Shown here: positions 1-6,865 of the stretch, in pieces
Position numbering within the stretch: position 1 is the stretch's first letter
Layout: each line of letters begins with the position of its first letter
DNA from: an uncultured Solobacterium sp.
Lineage (GTDB): Bacteria > Bacillota_I > Bacilli_A > Erysipelotrichales > Erysipelotrichaceae
Direction: 5' to 3'
Assembly (NCBI GenBank): GCA_900554555.1
Contig: USIC01000044.1
Span: 1-6,865, forward strand
DNA length: 6,865 nucleotides
The notes under the pieces: model-generated
What the model saw: the letters and a program-made list of their open reading frames with translations, nothing else
What the model was told of the DNA's origin: nothing
The model's database searches: none
Made by a program: the position numbers and the translations under genes

Positions 1-66
1 TCAAGCAGAAGACGGCATACGAGATGTCGCAGGTGACTGGAGTTCAGACGTGTGCTCTTCCGATCT
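1..66 (+). other. Illumina sequencing adapter at the contig end (not genomic)
   Basis: Bases 2-25 are the standard Illumina P7 flow-cell sequence, 26-32 are a seven-base sample index (gtcgcag), and 33-66 are the full 34-base TruSeq-type read-2 adapter ending in CTTCCGATCT. Base 1 is an extra t. The order P7, index, read-2 adapter is exactly that of a library molecule, so this is untrimmed technical sequence joined to genomic DNA at position 67. Nothing in it should be interpreted biologically, and sequence to the left of 67 in the genome is simply missing. Confidence 0.98.
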
Positions 67-76
67 GACAAGCGGT

Positions 77-115
77 AAAACAAAAATCCGAGCATGCATT
101 CATATGCCCGGATTT
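77..115 (-). terminator. Strong rho-independent terminator, closing the Cys-codon leader ORF
   Basis: Read on the minus strand, 115-104 (AAATCCGGGCAT) pairs with 95-84 (ATGCTCGGATTT) to give a 12-bp stem with one G-U pair and an 8-base loop. The T-rich tract TTTTTGTTTT (86-77) overlaps the stem base and follows it. It lies 40 bases past the stop of the small ORF at 156-245 and is also the first terminator met after the SNF2-type gene. It could also act weakly on the plus strand, where the tail is ATTTATTTA. Its 5' arm can pair with a segment inside the small ORF; see the attenuator entry. Confidence 0.85.
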
Positions 116-196
116 ATTTACGATTGCACTTGCGAATCACTGCAATAACTGTAAATTAAAGCAGCCCCGACGCAGTAACAGCATTCATCCGGACAT
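104..196 (-). promoter_or_regulatory. Candidate cysteine-responsive transcription attenuator (antiterminator pairing)
   Basis: Seen: RNA segment 196-187 (ATGTCCGGAT), inside the leader ORF, is complementary over 10 bases (nine Watson-Crick pairs, one G-U) to 113-104 (ATCCGGGCAT), which is most of the 5' arm of the terminator. The two pairings exclude each other. The segment begins 10 bases after a run of four Cys codons (218-207). Inferred: a ribosome stalled at any of the four codons would leave 196-187 exposed, because its leading edge would fall at about 206 to 197. The segment could then form the antiterminator; with enough Cys-tRNA, translation proceeds and the terminator forms. Other pairings in the 73-base gap (179-172 with 143-136, or 146-141 with 128-123) could bring the arms together or compete. 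The long gap is the main weakness compared with classical attenuators such as that of trp. Confidence 0.5.
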
Positions 197-245
197 TGTT
201 TAAAATACAACAGCAACACATTTGATTCATCATTTGTTTGTTCAT
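156..245 (-). CDS. 29-residue leader peptide or small protein with four consecutive cysteines
   Basis: The ORF starts at ATG 245-243 and stops at TAA 158-156. An AGGAGG (259-254) lies 8 bases before the ATG, and a good promoter lies at 313-285. The peptide begins MNKQMMNQM, continues CCCC (residues 10-13, codons TGT TGC TGT TGT) and ILNNVR, and ends ASGLL. It has no signal peptide or membrane segment and matches no family I recognise. The terminator follows at 115-77, so promoter, RBS, ORF and terminator form a complete unit in about 240 bases. The Cys run, the short length and the complementarity of codons 17-20 to the terminator arm make a regulatory leader peptide the best reading. Cys-codon leaders are known in Actinobacteria; I do not know of this one in Bacillota. 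The alternative is a small metal- or thiol-reactive peptide. It is oriented like its neighbours, and any downstream target gene is lost at the contig end. Confidence 0.62.
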   Translation of the reverse strand: MNKQMMNQMCCCCILNNVRMNAVTASGLL

Positions 246-253
246 GCCCGCTT

Positions 254-259
254 CCTCCT
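254..259 (-). promoter_or_regulatory. Ribosome binding site of the 29-codon ORF
   Basis: AGGAGG on the minus strand, six consensus bases, 8 bases from ATG 245-243. It decides that start over the in-frame ATGs at codons 5, 6 and 9 and is the main evidence that this very short ORF is translated. Confidence 0.75.
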
Positions 260-284
260 GTTCACCGTTCTTATTACGGGAATT

Positions 285-313
285 ATCATAGTACTATCAG
301 TTTTATTTGTCTA
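285..313 (-). promoter_or_regulatory. SigA-type promoter for the leader ORF, with a palindrome over its -10
   Basis: On the minus strand, -35 TAGACA (313-308) and -10 TATGAT (290-285) are separated by exactly 17 bases (307-291). Each hexamer differs from consensus at one position. Predicted transcription start is near 278, giving a leader of about 33 bases before the ATG. The -35 begins three bases after the SNF2-type gene's stop (318-316). A perfect 10-base palindrome, ATAGTACTAT (288-297), overlaps the -10 and spacer and might be an operator, but it is short and may be chance. Confidence 0.65.
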
Positions 314-315
314 CT

Positions 316-2433
316 CTAATGATTTAATTTATTTCTTTCATTTTGAATCAGTGCTTGAATATCCGCTTCTTCAAACTGTTCTAACTGCTCCGATATCTCA
401 GATTCATCCGCAAATTGATCAAAGATTTTTTGTTTATCATGTAATCGTTTAACCAGTGTTTCATCTATCGTATCCGCTGCTAATAATCGGTATACAAATA
501 CATGATGAACCTGACCCATACGATAGATACGAGAAATGGCTTGCATCTCATCCGAAGGTTTTAATTGTGGTTCACAAAGAATGACAATCTCAGCTGTCTG
601 AATATTTAAGCCAATTCCGCCCGCATGAATTTGTATTGGTAATACACGTGCAATCGGCTTCTCAAATTGGCATAGAATATCTTGTCGTTTCTCCAGTGAT
701 AATTTACCACTAATGACAGGTAAAGCTTTCCCTAATAATAAGTCCGAGACAAAAGATAGTGTATCCAGAAAGTAAGAGAATATGACAACTTTTCTTCCTT
801 CACTAAGTGCTTGTAAACAAAGTTCAACCATTCTCTCTGCTTTTGCAGAATTGAGTGAATTCCAAGATACTCTACGCATTGCCATAAAGTTTCCTGATTC
901 AACCGCTTTGCGGTAAGAGTTGATTTCCTCATCATTCATCATGCACCATTCATCGTGGATCGTTAGTTCTGGAAGTTCCATAAGTACATCTGCGCGCTTG
1001 CGACGTAAATACACCGGTGCAATCTTCTTACGGAATAGGTCTGCTTTCGCTAGATATTTCATTCCTTTAATTTCGTTTGCCAACGATGGATTCAAACATT
1101 CAATGAGATAACACATTTCATCAACATTGTTTTCGATGGCTGTACCCGTCATATATAGAGCGTACTCTGCTTGTTCAATGATACGTAGCGTATAGCGAGT
1201 ACGTTGTGCATCTTTATTTTTTACAAAGTGTGCTTCATCTACGACTACCATATCAAGCGGAAAATCTTTATCAAAGATAATTTTATCTAATCCTTCGTAA
1301 TTGATGATTGCAATACCACCATCGCTCTTCCATTTTTCATAATTGCCAAAACTTTCTGCATGTAATATATATGCTTGCATGTCTGTCAGTTTATCAACTT
1401 CATGTTTCCAATTCAATAATACGCTAGCTGGACATATTACCAGGAAATAACGATGCCCTTCATGATGTAAATGATGCATTGCCGCAATTGCTTGGATAGT
1501 TTTGCCAAGTCCCATCTCATCTCCAAGTAATACTCTTTTCTGATGCAAGATATACTTCGTTCCAAACTCTTGATAATGACGTAATTCCGTATGAAATGAT
1601 TCTAAAAATAATGGTGTTGCTTGTATCTGTTTCAGCAGTGAAACATCAATATCTTCATCAACATCATCTTTGATTTCAATATCCGCAAGTTTCTCAATCA
1701 CCGTATAGTATTGAATTGCATTCTCTTTATAATCTTGTAATATCGTTTCAAAGTTTACATCTTTTAGCGCAGAACAATTATCATAAAACTGCTTGATTGT
1801 TTCTGCGTAAGAAGATTGGTTGAAATACTTTACATCTTCTACAGCTGTTAAAAATTTCTGTTTCTTTTTTCTGCCACTAAAAATCCAACCAATGAAGTTT
1901 TGAATTAACCCACTGTTATCATAGGCTTCTTGAATTCCGTGTTCTGTTTCTTGATTGATTGTATTTAACTTTGAAAAGTTATCTTTTGTATATCGATAGA
2001 AATAGATTTCTTGCATGATTTCTTGATCTCTATCACTTAGATGTTCTAGATCTATGCGATAGTGAATCTGACTTTTGATAGCTGTAGTACTACGATGCAG
2101 CGCAAGCATCAATTTATCTGCTGTCTCTTCGCCTATTCCATCGAGCGCTTCTAGTTGTCTATGATTATATTTCAACAAATCATACATCGTTGTAATGTGA
2201 TTTGCATATAGTGCTTGTAAAGGAAGTCTAGCAAAAGATTTCGCTAGATCTGTAATTGGAATTTGTCGGATTTCATCTTCAACTTTATCCATGACAATCT
2301 CTTGGCATCGATCATGAATACTTTGGATGTTTTTCTTTTCTTGCGTACGCAACGAAAAGAGTTGATTTTGTAACATCTTCAACTGTTCACGTTCATAGCG
2401 AATCTCTTTGTAGTTGATATTTCCTAGTCGCAT
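316..2433 (-). CDS. SNF2-family DNA-dependent ATPase/translocase (DEAH type) with N-terminal helix-hairpin-helix
   Basis: This 705-residue cytoplasmic superfamily 2 ATPase should move along double-stranded DNA using ATP. All helicase motifs are visible: motif I GDEMGLGKT (304-312), Ia around CPASVLLNWK (334-343), II DEAH (399-402), III TGTAIEN (429-435), IV around VVIFSYFLDT (549-558), V AGGIGLN (604-610), and VI QAISRIYRMGQ (631-641, two conserved Arg). Residues about 75-112 contain a helix-hairpin-helix-like segment (DGIGEETADKL), suggesting extra DNA contact. The region to about 290 is otherwise charged, helical and unrecognised. No nuclease or methylase domain is seen. ATG 2433-2431 is chosen: GAGG (2442-2439) lies 5 bases away, against 2 for the ATG at 2436. 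A GTG at 2484 gives a longer frame, but its first codons lie in the opp terminator. Role unknown: DNA repair, transcription recycling or defence are all possible, and the neighbours do not discriminate. Transcripts probably end at the terminator at 77-115. Confidence 0.9.
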   Translation of the reverse strand: MRLGNINYKEIRYEREQLKMLQNQLFSLRTQEKKNIQSIHDRCQEIVMDKVEDEIRQIPITDLAKSFARLPLQALYANHITTMYDLLKYNHRQLEALDGIGEETADKLMLALHRSTTAIKSQIHYRIDLEHLSDRDQEIMQEIYFYRYTKDNFSKLNTINQETEHGIQEAYDNSGLIQNFIGWIFSGRKKKQKFLTAVEDVKYFNQSSYAETIKQFYDNCSALKDVNFETILQDYKENAIQYYTVIEKLADIEIKDDVDEDIDVSLLKQIQATPLFLESFHTELRHYQEFGTKYILHQKRVLLGDEMGLGKTIQAIAAMHHLHHEGHRYFLVICPASVLLNWKHEVDKLTDMQAYILHAESFGNYEKWKSDGGIAIINYEGLDKIIFDKDFPLDMVVVDEAHFVKNKDAQRTRYTLRIIEQAEYALYMTGTAIENNVDEMCYLIECLNPSLANEIKGMKYLAKADLFRKKIAPVYLRRKRADVLMELPELTIHDEWCMMNDEEINSYRKAVESGNFMAMRRVSWNSLNSAKAERMVELCLQALSEGRKVVIFSYFLDTLSFVSDLLLGKALPVISGKLSLEKRQDILCQFEKPIARVLPIQIHAGGIGLNIQTAEIVILCEPQLKPSDEMQAISRIYRMGQVHHVFVYRLLAADTIDETLVKRLHDKQKIFDQFADESEISEQLEQFEEADIQALIQNERNKLNH

Positions 2434-2438
2434 CATTT

Positions 2439-2442
2439 CCTC
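2439..2442 (-). promoter_or_regulatory. Start-deciding ribosome binding site of the SNF2-type gene
   Basis: GAGG on the minus strand lies 2 bases from the first ATG (2436) and 5 bases from the second (2433), so the second is favoured. If the TATAAT at 2454-2449 is the -10, transcription would start around 2442, placing this site at the very 5' end of the mRNA. Confidence 0.5.
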
Positions 2443-2448
2443 ACAAGA

Positions 2449-2476
2449 ATTATAATTTGTTCTTCTAAAAAAACAA
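2449..2476 (-). promoter_or_regulatory. Probable promoter of the SNF2-type gene, nested in the opp terminator
   Basis: A perfect TATAAT lies at 2454-2449. With a 16-base spacer, the -35 would be TTGTTT (2476-2471), which matches the consensus only in TTG and lies inside the 3' arm and T-run of the opp terminator. The -10 is convincing and the -35 poor. The predicted start near 2442 leaves only about 9 untranslated bases. The gene has no other space for a promoter: just 75 bases separate it from oppF, most of them terminator. Confidence 0.5.
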
Positions 2477-2500
2477 ATGACCACATTGTAGTCATTTGTT
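2467..2500 (-). terminator. Strong rho-independent terminator of the opp operon
   Basis: On the minus strand, AACAAATGAC (2500-2491) pairs perfectly over 10 bp with GTCATTTGTT (2481-2472) around a 9-base loop, followed by a run of seven T (2473-2467). It starts 8 bases after the oppF stop. It separates the transporter operon from the SNF2-type gene and contradicts a translational start for that gene at 2484. Confidence 0.92.
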
Positions 2501-2508
2501 AATGTTAT

Positions 2509-3444
2509 TTATTTTGTCCACTTTGCAAACTCTTCATCCGTCGCAAGGACTGTATGTGTATCAGTAATCTTATGATAGCTTCCAGCGGTGTAATCAACGC
2601 CCTCTTTTGTCTTGTCATAGCTAAGTGCGATACGTTTTTTCTCTACAACTGGATTTGCTTTTGGAATTGCAGATAAAAGTGCTTTTGTATATGGATGAAT
2701 TGGATTATCAAAGATTTCATTCGTCGTACCCGTTTCTACAATATGACCTAGATGCATAACTCCAATACGATCAGAGATATACTTCACCATTGAAAGGTCA
2801 TGTGCGATAAATAGATACGTAATTCCAAGTTCCTGTTGTAAGTCTTTCATGAGGTTAACAACCTGTGCCTGCACAGACACATCCAAGGCAGAGATAGCTT
2901 CATCTGCGATAACAAGCTTTGGATTCATAATTAACGCACGCGCAATCCCAATACGCTGTCTTTGTCCACCTGAAAACTGTTGTGGATAACGTGTCGCATG
3001 TTCACGGGATAAACCAACCTTCTCCAAAATTTGATATACACGCTCTGTTAACTCTTCTTCACTCTTATAGTCATGATGAATACGCAATCCTTGCGCAATA
3101 ATTTCTTTCACTTTCTTACGAGGATTTAAACAAGCCATCGGATCTTGGAAAATCATCTGCATATTCTTACGGAGATAATCATTTTCCTTTTTTGAAAGCT
3201 TTCCACTAATATCATGACCATCAAAGATAATCTTACCTTCTGTAGGATCATATAAACGGATGACTGCACGTCCTGTTGTGGACTTACCAGATCCAGATTC
3301 ACCTACAAGTCCATAGGTTTCACCTTCATAGATATCAAAGCTAATACCATCGACAGCTTTTGTGGTGTAATTTCGAGAGATACGGAAGTGCTGCTTTAAA
3401 TTTTCTACATGCAATAATGGTGTTGCGTTATAATCAACTGCCAT
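2509..3444 (-). CDS. oppF: Oligopeptide ABC transporter ATP-binding protein OppF
   Basis: Second ATPase of the peptide importer, 311 residues, acting on the inner membrane face as a heterodimer with OppD. Walker A GESGSGKS is at 48-55, the Q-loop Gln at 100, the signature FSGGQRQRI at 157-165, Walker B LVIADEA with catalytic Glu at 182, the D-loop SALD at 185-188, and the switch His at 215. The base after the catalytic Glu is Ala rather than the usual Pro (DEA for DEP). The C-terminal 50 residues ([12 protein letters not shown] onward) are the Opp/Dpp-specific extension, here ending in a Firmicutes AmiF/OppF-like tail ([14 protein letters not shown]) without the cysteines of the Gram-negative form. 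ATG 3444 is chosen: GAGGAG (3460-3455) is 10 bases away but only 1 base from the upstream GTG at 3453. It overlaps oppD by 11 bases, implying translational coupling, and is last in the operon. Substrates cannot be read from the ATPase. Confidence 0.95.
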
Positions 3445-4531
3445 ACTTCTCACTCTCCTCTCTCATACGCTCAATTCTATCTTTTAGAACTGCAGGCATT
3501 TCTGCACGCGGACTTCTTTCATCACATAACCATGAAGCCACACGGTGTTGGCCACCGACATTAAACATTGGTGGTTCTGCTTTATAGTCAATCGCTAATG
3601 CATATTCATTACGTGGTGCAAAGGCATCATATGTAATTGGTTTTAATAAATCTGGTGGTGTACCTGGAATTGCGTATAATCGATCAGAATTGGTTTCTGT
3701 ATCAGGCATAGACGCAAGTAGTCCCCATGTATATGGATGACGAGGATCGTAGAAGATTTCATCAATGGAACCCTTCTCAATAATTCTACCTGCATACATG
3801 ACATCGACATAGTCTGCAACTTTTGCGACCACGCCTAAGTCATGCGTGATAAAGATAACTGAAATATTTCTTTCTACCTGAAGTTTTTTAATTACTTCTA
3901 GGATTTTAGCCTGAATCGTTACATCAAGTGCTGTAGTAGGCTCATCACAAATCAGAATATCTGGATTACATGCAAGTGCAATCGCAATCACAACACGTTG
4001 ACGCATACCACCAGATAACTGGTGTGGATATTCTTTAAATCTCTTCTCAGGGTTTTCAATTCCAACTTCTGCTAAAAGGTCGATTGCACGCTTCTTCGCT
4101 TCTTCTTTGGAAATGCCTTCATGAATAATCATACCCTCCATGATTTGCTTTCCAATCTGCATGGTTGGATCAAGGGATGTCATCGGGTCTTGGAAAATCA
4201 TCGCAATATGTTTTCCGCTAAAGCGGTAACGAATTTCTTTCTGCGATAGTGTTGTCATATCAACAGTTTCACGTTCGCCCTTTTCATTTGTAAAACTGTA
4301 TTCAATACGTCCACTATCGATCCTACCATTACCCGCTAGAATTCCCATGATGGCACGAACAGTAACGGTCTTACCCGAACCAGATTCACCTACGATAGCG
4401 ATTGTTTCACCTTTAAATAAATCCATACGTACACCACGAATCGCTTTCACCCTACCTGAAGCAGTTTCAAACGAAATATTCAGATCACGTATCGATAATA
4501 CTTTATCTTTTTTATCTTTGTTTGCTAACAT
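3434..4531 (-). CDS. oppD: Oligopeptide ABC transporter ATP-binding protein OppD, lacking the iron-sulfur cysteines
   Basis: First ATPase of the importer, 365 residues, paired with OppF beneath the OppB/OppC channel. Walker A GESGSGKT is at 48-55, the Q-loop Gln at 114, the signature LSGGMRQRV at 172-180, Walker B DILICDEP with catalytic Glu at 197, the D-loop TALD at 200-203, and the switch His at 230. The C-terminal Opp/Dpp extension runs from HPYTWGLLASMP (265-276) to about 335. Family members such as DppD carry four Cys there that bind a [4Fe-4S] cluster. The aligned positions here are Asp302, Asn308, Asp315 and Ser333, so no cluster is expected. I recall similar replacements in streptococcal AmiE/lactococcal OppD, so this fits the lineage. 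AAAGGAG (4543-4537) lies 5 bases before the ATG; the gap from oppC is 12 bases. Confidence 0.95.
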   Translation of the reverse strand: MLANKDKKDKVLSIRDLNISFETASGRVKAIRGVRMDLFKGETIAIVGESGSGKTVTVRAIMGILAGNGRIDSGRIEYSFTNEKGERETVDMTTLSQKEIRYRFSGKHIAMIFQDPMTSLDPTMQIGKQIMEGMIIHEGISKEEAKKRAIDLLAEVGIENPEKRFKEYPHQLSGGMRQRVVIAIALACNPDILICDEPTTALDVTIQAKILEVIKKLQVERNISVIFITHDLGVVAKVADYVDVMYAGRIIEKGSIDEIFYDPRHPYTWGLLASMPDTETNSDRLYAIPGTPPDLLKPITYDAFAPRNEYALAIDYKAEPPMFNVGGQHRVASWLCDERSPRAEMPAVLKDRIERMREESEKYGS

Positions 4532-4543
4532 GGAAACTCCTTT

Positions 4544-5584
4544 CTAGCGTTGTTTTTGATTTGGATCAAACGCATCACGAATACCATCTGCAAAGAGGTT
4601 GAAACTTAACATCAGTAATGCAAGTACGATAATTGCAGACATGATGATATGTGGATGCCCTGTAAGTGATTTATATCCATCGGAAATAAGTGATCCCAGG
4701 GAGGCATCAGGAGCCTGAATACCTAAACCAACGAAAGATAGGAAGGCTTCTGTAAAGATAGCGTTTGGAATTGAGAACATTGACATCACAATCAATTGTC
4801 CAAAGATATTTGGCATAACTTCTTTAAAGATGATAGAGAAGTTTTTTGCACCAAGTGTTCTACTTGCAAGAATGAATTCGGATTCTTTCAGCTTTAATAC
4901 TTCCGCTCTGGAAATACGCGCCATACCAATCCATCCTGTAATCATTAACGCAAAGACGATGGAAGTAATACCCGGAGGAAGAACCAGTCCTAATAGTGTT
5001 ACAACCACAAGGGTTGGAATACCATTTAAGATTTCCATGAATCTTTGCATGACCATATCGACCTTACCACCAAAGTAACCAGAGATTAATCCATAGGACA
5101 TACCAATCACAATATCGATTACAACTGCACTTAATGCGATAATCAATGATACTCTTGTACCTTCCCATACACGTGTAAATAAATCTCTTCCATTGGTGTC
5201 TGTACCAAACCAATAGAATGCTTGCGATACACCATGGGCTGCGTATTGATCAATACCCTTCTCATAACCACTAAAGATTCCTAGTTTATAAATTCCTTGA
5301 ATACGTGGTGGTAAACTTTGTACATCAAGATTAATCGCATCAGCCTTATACCCCGAAATCATCGGTCCAATGATAGCCAGTAGAATGATTGCAATGATAA
5401 TGATGGCACCGAGTACCGCACCTTTATTCTTGTTAAAATGCATCCAAACATCTTTTGCATAAGAAGTTGCAGTATAAGCTTCATCTAATAATTCTTCATT
5501 ACGATGTACAAAGACAAAATCTTCCGCTGTAAAATCATCAACTTTTTCATCTGTCAAAAAAGGTTTATTTTTAATCATATCCAT
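4544..5584 (-). CDS. oppC: Oligopeptide ABC transporter permease OppC
   Basis: Membrane subunit of the importer, 346 residues, pairing with OppB. A soluble N-terminal stretch (1-53, including HRNEELLDEAYT) matches the OppC_N region and leads to a first membrane helix at about 54-76. The extracytoplasmic segment 77-140 contains the conserved WFGTDTNGRDLFTRVWEGTR (125-144). The remaining helices lie between about 144 and 332. The cytoplasmic EAA loop that docks on the ATPases is near 226-260 (RAEVLKLKESEFILASRTLG), and the end IRDAFDP is typical of the family. The start codon abuts the oppB stop with no gap, and its AAGGAGG (5599-5593) is inside the oppB end, 8 bases from this ATG and 14 from the in-frame ATG at codon 3, so the first is used. 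Confidence 0.95.
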   Translation of the reverse strand: MDMIKNKPFLTDEKVDDFTAEDFVFVHRNEELLDEAYTATSYAKDVWMHFNKNKGAVLGAIIIIAIILLAIIGPMISGYKADAINLDVQSLPPRIQGIYKLGIFSGYEKGIDQYAAHGVSQAFYWFGTDTNGRDLFTRVWEGTRVSLIIALSAVVIDIVIGMSYGLISGYFGGKVDMVMQRFMEILNGIPTLVVVTLLGLVLPPGITSIVFALMITGWIGMARISRAEVLKLKESEFILASRTLGAKNFSIIFKEVMPNIFGQLIVMSMFSIPNAIFTEAFLSFVGLGIQAPDASLGSLISDGYKSLTGHPHIIMSAIIVLALLMLSFNLFADGIRDAFDPNQKQR

Positions 5585-6520
5585 TTAATTACCCTCCTTT
5601 GCCACACGAATACGTGGATCAATGAAACCGTAGAGAATATCAACAATTAACATCACAAAGATATATAATGCTGAATAGATAAATGCACATGCAATCACAA
5701 CGTTATAATCGTTATTCTGAATTGCTTGTACCATTAACATACCGATACCAGGAATACCAAATACCTTTTCAACAACCATTGAACCTGTCAAAAGATTTAC
5801 TAACAATGGTCCCATAATTGTAACGATAGGAATTAATGCATTCCGTAATGCATGGTTTAGAATCAAGCCTGTTTGTTTTACACCTTTCGCCTTGACCAAT
5901 TGAATATAATCAGATCCTAATACATCGATTAATTCTGAACGTGTAAAACGAGAAACATTCGCAAGCGGAAACATCGACAATGCAAGTACAGGTAGTATCA
6001 TGGATGACCCAGCATTCTTTGCAGAGTATAGAATCGGTGTCCAGCTAAGTTTAAAGCCGACGTAATACATTAACACTAATGCAAATACATACGATGGAAC
6101 GGATACACCTATGATAGAAATAAAAGAACATAGCGTATCAACCCACGTATTATGGTTAAGTGCAGCCGCAACTCCTAAAATAAGTCCTAGAATCGAACCG
6201 ACAACCATCGCCATTGCACCGATGCGAATCGATAAGGATAGCGGTCCACTAATCAAAGCAGCGACTGCTTTATTTTTATTGATGACGTATGATACACCAA
6301 AGTCACCTTGAAACATATTTGCGACATAGCGGAAGAAACGAACCAAAACCGGATCACTCAACCCATATTTCGCATTTAATAACGCTAACTGTGAGGATGT
6401 TAACTTCTCATCATTAAATGGAGAACCAGGCATTAATTCCAACATCAGAAATAATACAAGCAAGATTGTTAATAATGTTAGAAAGCTAATCACGATACGC
6501 TTGGTAATATATTTAAACAT
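5585..6520 (-). CDS. oppB: Oligopeptide ABC transporter permease OppB
   Basis: Membrane subunit forming the peptide channel with OppC, 311 residues, the usual length. The first helix spans about 9-29 and is followed by LMPGSPF (29-35), typical of the OppB N-terminus. About five more helices lie near 97-120, 131-154, 172-188, 228-247 and 275-298. The EAA loop contacting the ATPases is at 195-230, with SELIDVLGSDYIQLVKAKGV and HALRNALIP, followed by a conserved VEKVFGIPGIG (250-260). The protein ends in DPRIR as in its relatives. AAAGGAG (6532-6526) is 5 bases before the ATG. It is the first gene after oppA, separated by 72 bases that contain a hairpin. Nothing is truncated. Confidence 0.96.
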   Translation of the reverse strand: MFKYITKRIVISFLTLLTILLVLFLMLELMPGSPFNDEKLTSSQLALLNAKYGLSDPVLVRFFRYVANMFQGDFGVSYVINKNKAVAALISGPLSLSIRIGAMAMVVGSILGLILGVAAALNHNTWVDTLCSFISIIGVSVPSYVFALVLMYYVGFKLSWTPILYSAKNAGSSMILPVLALSMFPLANVSRFTRSELIDVLGSDYIQLVKAKGVKQTGLILNHALRNALIPIVTIMGPLLVNLLTGSMVVEKVFGIPGIGMLMVQAIQNNDYNVVIACAFIYSALYIFVMLIVDILYGFIDPRIRVAKEGN

Positions 6521-6547
6521 GAAGACTCCTTTCTTTTTGATAACAGA

Positions 6548-6573
6548 ATAGAGCGGCGTTTATACCGCTCTAT
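6548..6573 (-). terminator. Hairpin between oppA and oppB: attenuating terminator or mRNA-stabilising stem
   Basis: ATAGAGCGG (minus strand 6573-6565) pairs perfectly over 9 bp with CCGCTCTAT (6556-6548) around an 8-base loop. The downstream tail (TCTGTTATC) lacks a true T-run, so full termination is unlikely. It lies 19 bases after the oppA stop and 15 bases before the oppB RBS. In Opp operons such stems commonly allow more binding protein than permease, through partial termination or protection of the oppA mRNA 3' end; that role here is inferred. Confidence 0.6.
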
Positions 6574-6592
6574 AATGTTGTTTTATACAATG

Positions 6593-6865
6593 TTACTGTG
6601 AAACGACCATCCATCTGTAATCATCAACGCCACCACTGTGGAAACGAATACCAGATACCTTAGGATTGATCATCATCGCACCACCATTCTGATAGATTGG
6701 GATAACACCGTGGTCTTGTTGTACTAAAATCTTTTCGGCTTCTTGGAAATCCTTCCAACGAGCTTCTGCATTTGCGGCATCTTCACCTGTTTCAGCTTTT
6801 GCGATGAGTGCATCATATGCAGAGTTGCTGTAAGAACCTTGGTTGTAAGTACTTGTAGTAGTTAC
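6593..6865 (-). CDS. oppA: Oligopeptide-binding lipoprotein OppA, C-terminal fragment (cut by window edge)
   Basis: The last 90 residues of an extracellular solute-binding protein of family 5 (SBP_bac_5), which hands peptides to OppB/OppC. The frame runs open from the window edge to TAA 6595-6593. Visible family features are the YDALIAKA segment near residues 19-26, an alternating charged helix (EARWKDFQEAEKIL, about 39-52), the strand VIPIYQNGG (58-66) and the C-terminal VSGIRFHSGGVDDYRW (71-86). The full protein is normally 500-650 residues and lipid-anchored, so the signal peptide, lipobox and most ligand contacts are outside this window. Its position directly before oppB supports oppA. 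Peptide, pheromone or other ligand specificity cannot be judged from this part. Confidence 0.9.
   Translation of the reverse strand, partial: VTTTSTYNQGSYSNSAYDALIAKAETGEDAANAEARWKDFQEAEKILVQQDHGVIPIYQNGGAMMINPKVSGIRFHSGGVDDYRWMVVSQ

Follow-up and report, generated by a model that had tools for sequence, protein, structure and literature searches.

A putative ribosome-mediated attenuator with a run of cysteine codons upstream of cysK in Erysipelotrichales

In the enterobacterial trp and his attenuators, a leader ORF carrying codons for the product amino acid precedes a biosynthetic operon, and an antiterminator competes with an intrinsic terminator. The locus analyzed here, from a 6,865-nucleotide stretch of an uncultured Solobacterium sp. 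contig (USIC01000044.1; hereafter, the whole stretch is called the window), has the same parts, but its amino acid is Cys and its host belongs to the Erysipelotrichales. A candidate first segment also lies at the leader start site, whereas in trp it lies at the regulatory codons. In a T-box, by contrast, the tRNA binds the RNA directly, with no leader peptide, unlike the arrangement here. The mycobacterial polycysteine ORFs of Canestrari 2020 reportedly have a leaderless start, whereas the leader described here has a Shine-Dalgarno (SD) site.

An earlier sequence-only reading of the locus had called a peptide-type Cys attenuator unusual for Bacillota, a view that calls for qualification. Leader-peptide attenuators have been reported for His in six Erysipelotrichales species (PMC9413887), for Leu in Staphylococcus aureus (PMC5794164), and, in bacilli, for His before hisZ and a hisS paralogue (PMC2965389), so the kind is not foreign to the phylum. 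The Erysipelotrichales His elements, from the same order as our locus, are likewise described as having three to five consecutive codons and a terminator with an antiterminator; they differ in that His codons precede his operons, and the available portion of that source contained no Cys leaders (PMC9413887). The reading was right that Cys leader peptides are known before cys genes in Actinobacteria, although no conserved terminator hairpin was found there and Rho was proposed as one possibility (PMC1262725). Those leaders, as described there, combine a short ORF and a Cys run before cys genes, as here, but their Cys run lies near the stop codon, whereas our locus has an SD site and an intrinsic terminator. 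In Rhodobacterales, uORFC-8-2 is described as a Cys leader with an intrinsic terminator before cysS, for which ribosome stalling was proposed (PMC8632094). It resembles the present locus in its tandem Cys codons (usually 14-15 there), short ORF, and intrinsic terminator, and differs in belonging to Alphaproteobacteria and in lying upstream of cysS, the gene here being cysK in relatives. In Clostridium perfringens, cysK-cysE are reported to be under a Cys T-box, that is, the same two genes with uncharged tRNA-Cys as the signal and read-through of a terminator as the outcome (PMC2940859). No Cys leader attenuator in Bacillota was found in full-text searches of open-licence literature. The kind of attenuator is already known; the combination of Cys, cysK, and Erysipelotrichales appears, within that literature, not to have been described.

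The features of the locus are collected in Table 1. The order of elements that had been read on the minus strand was confirmed for the AGGAGG, the ORF, the Cys codons, and the terminator but not for the promoter, which was not above chance by itself: window bases 1-1000 held 2 promoter-like sites, against a mean of 3.0 in shuffled sequences. Segment 2 starts 10 nt past the last Cys codon, and its 10 bases are the exact complement of segment 3, with one G-U pair, as had been claimed. None of 300 shuffles of the region after the Cys codons matched this helix (p = 0.003). Folding of both states, one of the proposed checks, gave z-scores of -4.26 for the terminator hairpin and -3.37 for a 95-nt antiterminator form, with 0 of 200 shuffles as good in either case. 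The 73-base gap between the pairing arms, regarded by the sequence-only reading as the weak point of its proposal, is not a strong objection, since in the antiterminator fold the 10-bp helix closes off a long arm into which the intervening RNA folds. A second Cys-rich frame on the minus strand (118-219; GTG start, 33 amino acids) overlaps the leader in the -1 frame. Farther along, window positions 2509-6865 hold oligopeptide-type ABC transporter genes (two ATPases and two permeases) and probably also the end of a binding-protein gene. Between these opp genes and the helicase gene, an inverted repeat with a T-run was seen by eye on the minus strand at 2460-2510 and looks like an opp terminator; it overlaps the listed GTG start of the helicase, the true start of which is probably further in.

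The gene beyond the terminator is absent from the window because bases 1-66 look like adapter at the contig end. They read like, and we take them to be, an Illumina P7 index adapter; this adapter-like end was left untrimmed in the assembly. The genomic part of the contig ends 17 nt beyond the terminator stem, and homology to a related locus, L003, stops exactly at window base 67. Searching with the helicase identified a contig of the Erysipelotrichaceae MAG SUG162 (locus L001; 89% identity), in which the same kind of leader and terminator is followed by cysK (TIGR01139, 444 bits, above the cut-off of 351) and then by a gene for a cysE-like serine acetyltransferase, whose TIGR01172 score of 159 bits falls short of the cut-off of 211. 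The gene order in L003 is the same (leader, terminator, cysK, cysE-like), and its proteins are 91% (cysK) and 83% (cysE-like) identical to those of L001. In these two relatives, the closest to the window, the terminator is followed by cysK, rather than by the convergent or unrelated gene that would have spoken against the earlier reading, and cysK probably follows the leader in the window's own organism as well. By eye, the promoter-like TAGACA-17-TATGAT is kept in L003 and appears as TAGACA-17-TAAGAT in L001. Of 43 loci looked at, 35 had at least 300 nt to read after cysK, and a cysE-like gene came right after cysK in 31 of these.

Table 1. Features in and around the candidate attenuator (window coordinates; L003 is a related locus)
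Feature	Position	Strand	Basis or remark
Presumed library adapter sequence at contig end, non-genomic	1..66		Reads as Illumina P7 index adapter; L003 homology ends at 67
T-rich tail of terminator	83-76	-	Directly after stem
Intrinsic terminator stem-loop, 12 pairs	84..115	-	Contains segment 3; segment 4 is 95-84
Segment 3, ATCCGGGCAT, common to antiterminator and terminator	104..113	-	Pairing tests and folds
Linker, long arm in antiterminator form	116..186	-	Fold
Leader peptide ORF, 29 codons, ATG at 245	156..245	-	Predicted ORF; peptide MNKQMMNQMCCCCILNNVRMNAVTASGLL
Segment 2, ATGTCCGGAT, antiterminator strand	187..196	-	Pairing tests and antiterminator fold
Four Cys codons TGT TGC TGT TGT, codons 10-13	207..218	-	Proposed stall site
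Candidate segment 1, CGGGCAT	244..250	-	Can pair with segment 2 (also segment 4); comparative evidence and folds
Shine-Dalgarno AGGAGG of leader	254..259	-	Sequence inspection
Possible promoter TAGACA-17-TATGAT	285..313	-	Not above shuffles alone; relatives by eye
SNF2-family helicase gene, upstream of leader	316..2484	-	Synteny anchor

A cysK match was found in 88 of 100 relatives, and 71 cysK loci were read (L001, 30 matches extracted as loci, and 40 chosen from the remainder); L002 was a copy of L001, so that 70 different upstream regions remained. Among short ORFs that had both an SD site and an ATG, CC was present in 25 of these 70 regions (the next residue, Lys, was doubled in 10) and CCC in 15 (the next residue was tripled in 2), whereas shuffled upstream regions gave CC in 1.3% and CCC in 0.14%. 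The other 45 of the 70 were without a CC leader in this SD-plus-ATG scan. Locus reading yielded 25 accepted leaders, spread over 23 genomes. The scan had given 25, of which 23 were accepted, and 2 were added by eye, L005 (MCMC, no CC) and L027 (no SD site). Apart from L027, most leaders were found with an SD-like site as a requirement. Two loci that passed the automatic CC rule, L037 and L060, were not accepted as leaders.

From 17 training sequences, a covariance model using sequence alone was built to cover the leader start, the Cys run, and segment 2, and 315 genomes of the order were scanned with it. The model matched 167 of them at an E value of ≤0.05, mostly with low-scoring rows, and leader counts rest on the rows that were read. 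The best 30 matches comprised 16 known loci (15 of them in the training set) and 14 new sites, 13 of which lay directly before cysK, the exception being L101; two of the 13 (L076 and L084) were near copies of known leaders. Twenty chosen lower-scoring rows gave 5 sites before cysK, 1 good leader elsewhere (L107), and 14 that were not leaders. L101, L120, and 13 other lower matches were judged to be chance, and by eye the two named ones look like the start of comF-like genes. L107 (G146:C64) is a convincing CCCC leader with a terminator. The membrane-protein gene behind it, truncated where the contig ends, had no family match and no relative in 40 other genomes and is possibly another member of a cysteine regulon. 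One further leader, L127, came from a class-wide cysK search and stood outside the pairing tests. In total, 45 leaders were accepted in relatives, 44 of them before cysK (in 42 genomes), which agrees with the earlier prediction that the missing gene would serve cysteine or sulfur metabolism.

The Cys codons in relatives, whose conservation had also been proposed as a check, bore out the reading: every accepted leader except L005 (MCMC) has a run of two to six Cys codons. Six consecutive Cys codons before cysK were seen in L100, L103, and L110. In the window and 44 relatives taken together, leader length ranges from 14 to 36 amino acids, Cys makes up 17% of the residues, and the Cys codons are 141 TGT and 48 TGC. 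A terminator lies between leader and gene in all 25 relatives and the window and then in all 19 further leaders. In 32 of 45 leaders (19 of 26 and then 13 of 19), the start of segment 2 lies 7-15 nt beyond the final codon of the main Cys run, approximately where a ribosome stalled at that codon would have its leading edge. Beyond the order, the model gave 6 matches at an E value of ≤0.001 among 395 genomes of the class; 4 of the 6 were genomes of the order set, one of which (G127) was not a leader when read, and the remaining two (G459 and G383) showed neither cysK nor a leader. Among 392 genomes of the phylum there were 4 matches, all in the order set and G127 among them. This absence outside the order is weak evidence because the filters were stricter and the model had been trained on this order. 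The class search also brought in 26 additional cysK loci, of which 24 were without a leader and 2 had one, L126 (the same site as L077) and L127.

The antiterminator pairing has to be judged against chance, which makes 2:3 pairing easy because the CCGG core is palindromic. The 2:3 helix beat shuffles at p ≤ 0.05 in 14 of 26 leaders and then in 11 of 19, with Fisher combinations of 8e-16 and 1e-11 over rows that are related. A swap test, in which partners are exchanged between dissimilar loci and kinship is handled only by the choice of dissimilar representatives, gave -14.88 kcal/mol for own partners and -10.44 for swapped ones in 19 representatives (p = 0.0001), -14.19 versus -12.72 in 15 held-out leaders (p = 0.006), and p = 0.0001 for all 34 representatives. 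The held-out leaders, one of which was L107, had been picked by the model, which includes segment 2 but not segment 3. Pairing was kept with changed letters in L010 (CTCTCGG/CCGAGAG), L068 (GAAACCGGGCTC/GAGTCCGGTTTC), and L045 (TCAGGAAAC/GTTTCCTGA). Segment 2 co-varies with segment 3, and the pairing first noticed in the window thus recurs in relatives with changed sequence.

These comparisons bear on other explanations of the locus. The Cys-rich ORF might encode a small protein with a function of its own (metal or haem binding, or redox sensing), with the hairpin merely its 3' terminator; Cys-rich peptides are able to bind metals, and the terminator does lie just downstream of the ORF. We consider this very improbable, given that the leaders vary in length from 14 to 36 amino acids, that those of different groups are unalike outside the Cys run and start region, that the window peptide had no Pfam match, that a sequence complementary to the terminator arm repeatedly follows close behind the Cys codons, and that cysK is time and again the next gene. 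There is an equally slim chance that the ORF is incidental and the terminator is under a trans-acting factor or another RNA sensor (T-box, riboswitch, or RNA-binding protein). In favor of such control are the reported Cys T-box of Clostridium perfringens cysK-cysE (PMC2940859) and the Rrf2-family regulator encoded directly before cysK in the leaderless locus L022 (1015-1485). T-boxes are indeed usual, as the sequence-only reading had supposed: they were present in 60 of 60 relatives searched (9 to 26 matches each at an E value of ≤0.001, with at least one over the cut-off in each), yet none reached gathering score in the 71 cysK loci or in 20 class loci. The only Rfam families at gathering score in the 71 cysK loci were tRNA and cobalamin, window bases 1-2600 gave sub-threshold matches only, with no family at gathering score, and the feature that recurs is the Cys run. 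Where cysK is leaderless, the Rrf2 gene of L022 suggests a transcription-factor alternative to the leader within the order. The upstream sequence of L031 is similar to that of L022 by eye, and leaderless L008 has an O-acetylhomoserine sulfhydrylase gene before cysK. Least probable of all is a programmed -1 frameshift at T TTA AAC (203-197) joining the Cys run to the second Cys-rich frame (KQCPDECCYC...) in a 42-residue protein, which we rejected because the heptamer, although in the right phase, with the -1 frame open to 118, and kept in L003, is absent from L001 (AAATTGAAAAAT), while leaders of other relatives have unrelated tails.

The element is therefore very probably a ribosome-mediated (trp-type) transcription attenuator that senses charged tRNA-Cys and controls a cysK(-cysE) operon. 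Its parts and their recurrence, the recurrent neighbor cysK, and the 2:3 co-variation were established computationally. As in known attenuators, a predicted leader ORF has a run of codons for one amino acid and an intrinsic terminator stands before the gene; in relatives, the downstream operon makes the same amino acid (cysK/cysE-like); and by sequence and folding, the antiterminator strand exposed by a stalled ribosome competes with the terminator. Ribosome stalling and a response to cysteine are predicted from these features. When Cys-tRNA is scarce, a ribosome would stall on the Cys codon run with its leading edge just short of segment 2, which would pair with segment 3 once the latter is transcribed; no terminator would then form, and RNA polymerase would enter cysK. 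When Cys-tRNA is plentiful, the ribosome would proceed through segment 2, which would be either covered or, once the ribosome had passed, caught again by segment 1 at the leader start site, and with segment 2 silenced, the terminator (segments 3 and 4) would halt transcription. The silencing of segment 2 in this plentiful (off) state is the least certain part of the model.

Folding simulations were consistent with the earlier claim that a stalled ribosome should leave segment 2 free: when the last Cys codon was occupied by a ribosome and the RNA stopped short of segment 4, predicted 2:3 pairing came to 0.97 for the window, and 24 of 26 leaders reached at least 0.62, L057 and L062 being the two that failed. 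With segment 4 present and the ribosome in the same place, equilibrium folding favored the terminator over the antiterminator in 20 of 26 leaders (0.91 versus 0.03 in the window); the switch must therefore be kinetic and decided during transcription, as in the classical trp model. Window RNA without a ribosome gave the antiterminator at 0.98 before segment 4 was made, 1:2 pairing at 0.94 and the terminator at 0.91 when it extended from 278 to 84, and the antiterminator 2:3 at 0.94 with 1:2 at 0.03 when it ran on to base 76; in a longer fold, segment 1 then pairs with segment 4. Because the preference flips with the RNA end (84 versus 76), folding alone fixes no default, and the states 1:2 plus 3:4 and 2:3 plus 1:4 are therefore close in energy. 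In the window, 28 nt separate segment 2 from the stop codon beyond it, too far for a ribosome halted at the stop to cover that segment; the simulated ribosome-at-stop state has zero antiterminator by construction (segment 2 was masked) and carries no evidential weight.

The stretch of RNA that precedes the start codon of the leader may act as a competing first segment. This segment lies between the SD site and the start codon, reaching into the latter, and in relatives the spacer between SD and AUG is often CGGG, able to pair with segment 2. The swap test for 1:2 gave p = 0.0007 (19 representatives), 0.037 (15 held-out), and 0.0001 (34), although relatedness may inflate it; the control pairing 1:3 gave 0.34, 0.47, and 0.49, respectively. 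Within the 7 nt that directly precede the start, GGG is present at the leader in 25 of 43 loci and at cysK in 0 of 43, and pairing with segment 2 was stronger for the leader start than for the cysK start (-8.37 versus -4.32; 32 representatives, Wilcoxon p = 0.0004). L094 and L096 carry a matching change in all three segments (CGGG to CAGG, CCCGG to CCTGG, and CCGGG to CCAGG). The 94-nt window region with the 1:2 hairpin was no more stable than shuffles (z +1.01), and several loci were without a 1:2 helix. The off state would be accounted for if segment 1 captures segment 2, a capture of which folding alone is no proof. We tentatively propose, at slightly less than even chances, a switch of four segments. 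Its first segment, the spacer from the SD site to the start codon, would mimic the terminator arm (CGGG...), capture segment 2 behind the ribosome, and close the leader start site, with global states 1:2 plus 3:4 (off) and 2:3 (on), and the switch would serve as an order-wide Cys-tRNA sensor in genomes that otherwise use many T-boxes. With two such global states, transcription termination would be tied to initiation at the leader. A first segment at the start site is possibly a new detail and, if real, would represent a distinct wiring of such a switch.

Short leaders of this kind are easily missed in annotation. Through them, many Erysipelotrichales gain a candidate cysteine sensor for a cysteine-making operon. 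The same genome would then combine two sensors of tRNA charging, a leader read by the ribosome at cysK and T-boxes at other loci, and their presence side by side would provide a concrete case for asking why one replaces another.
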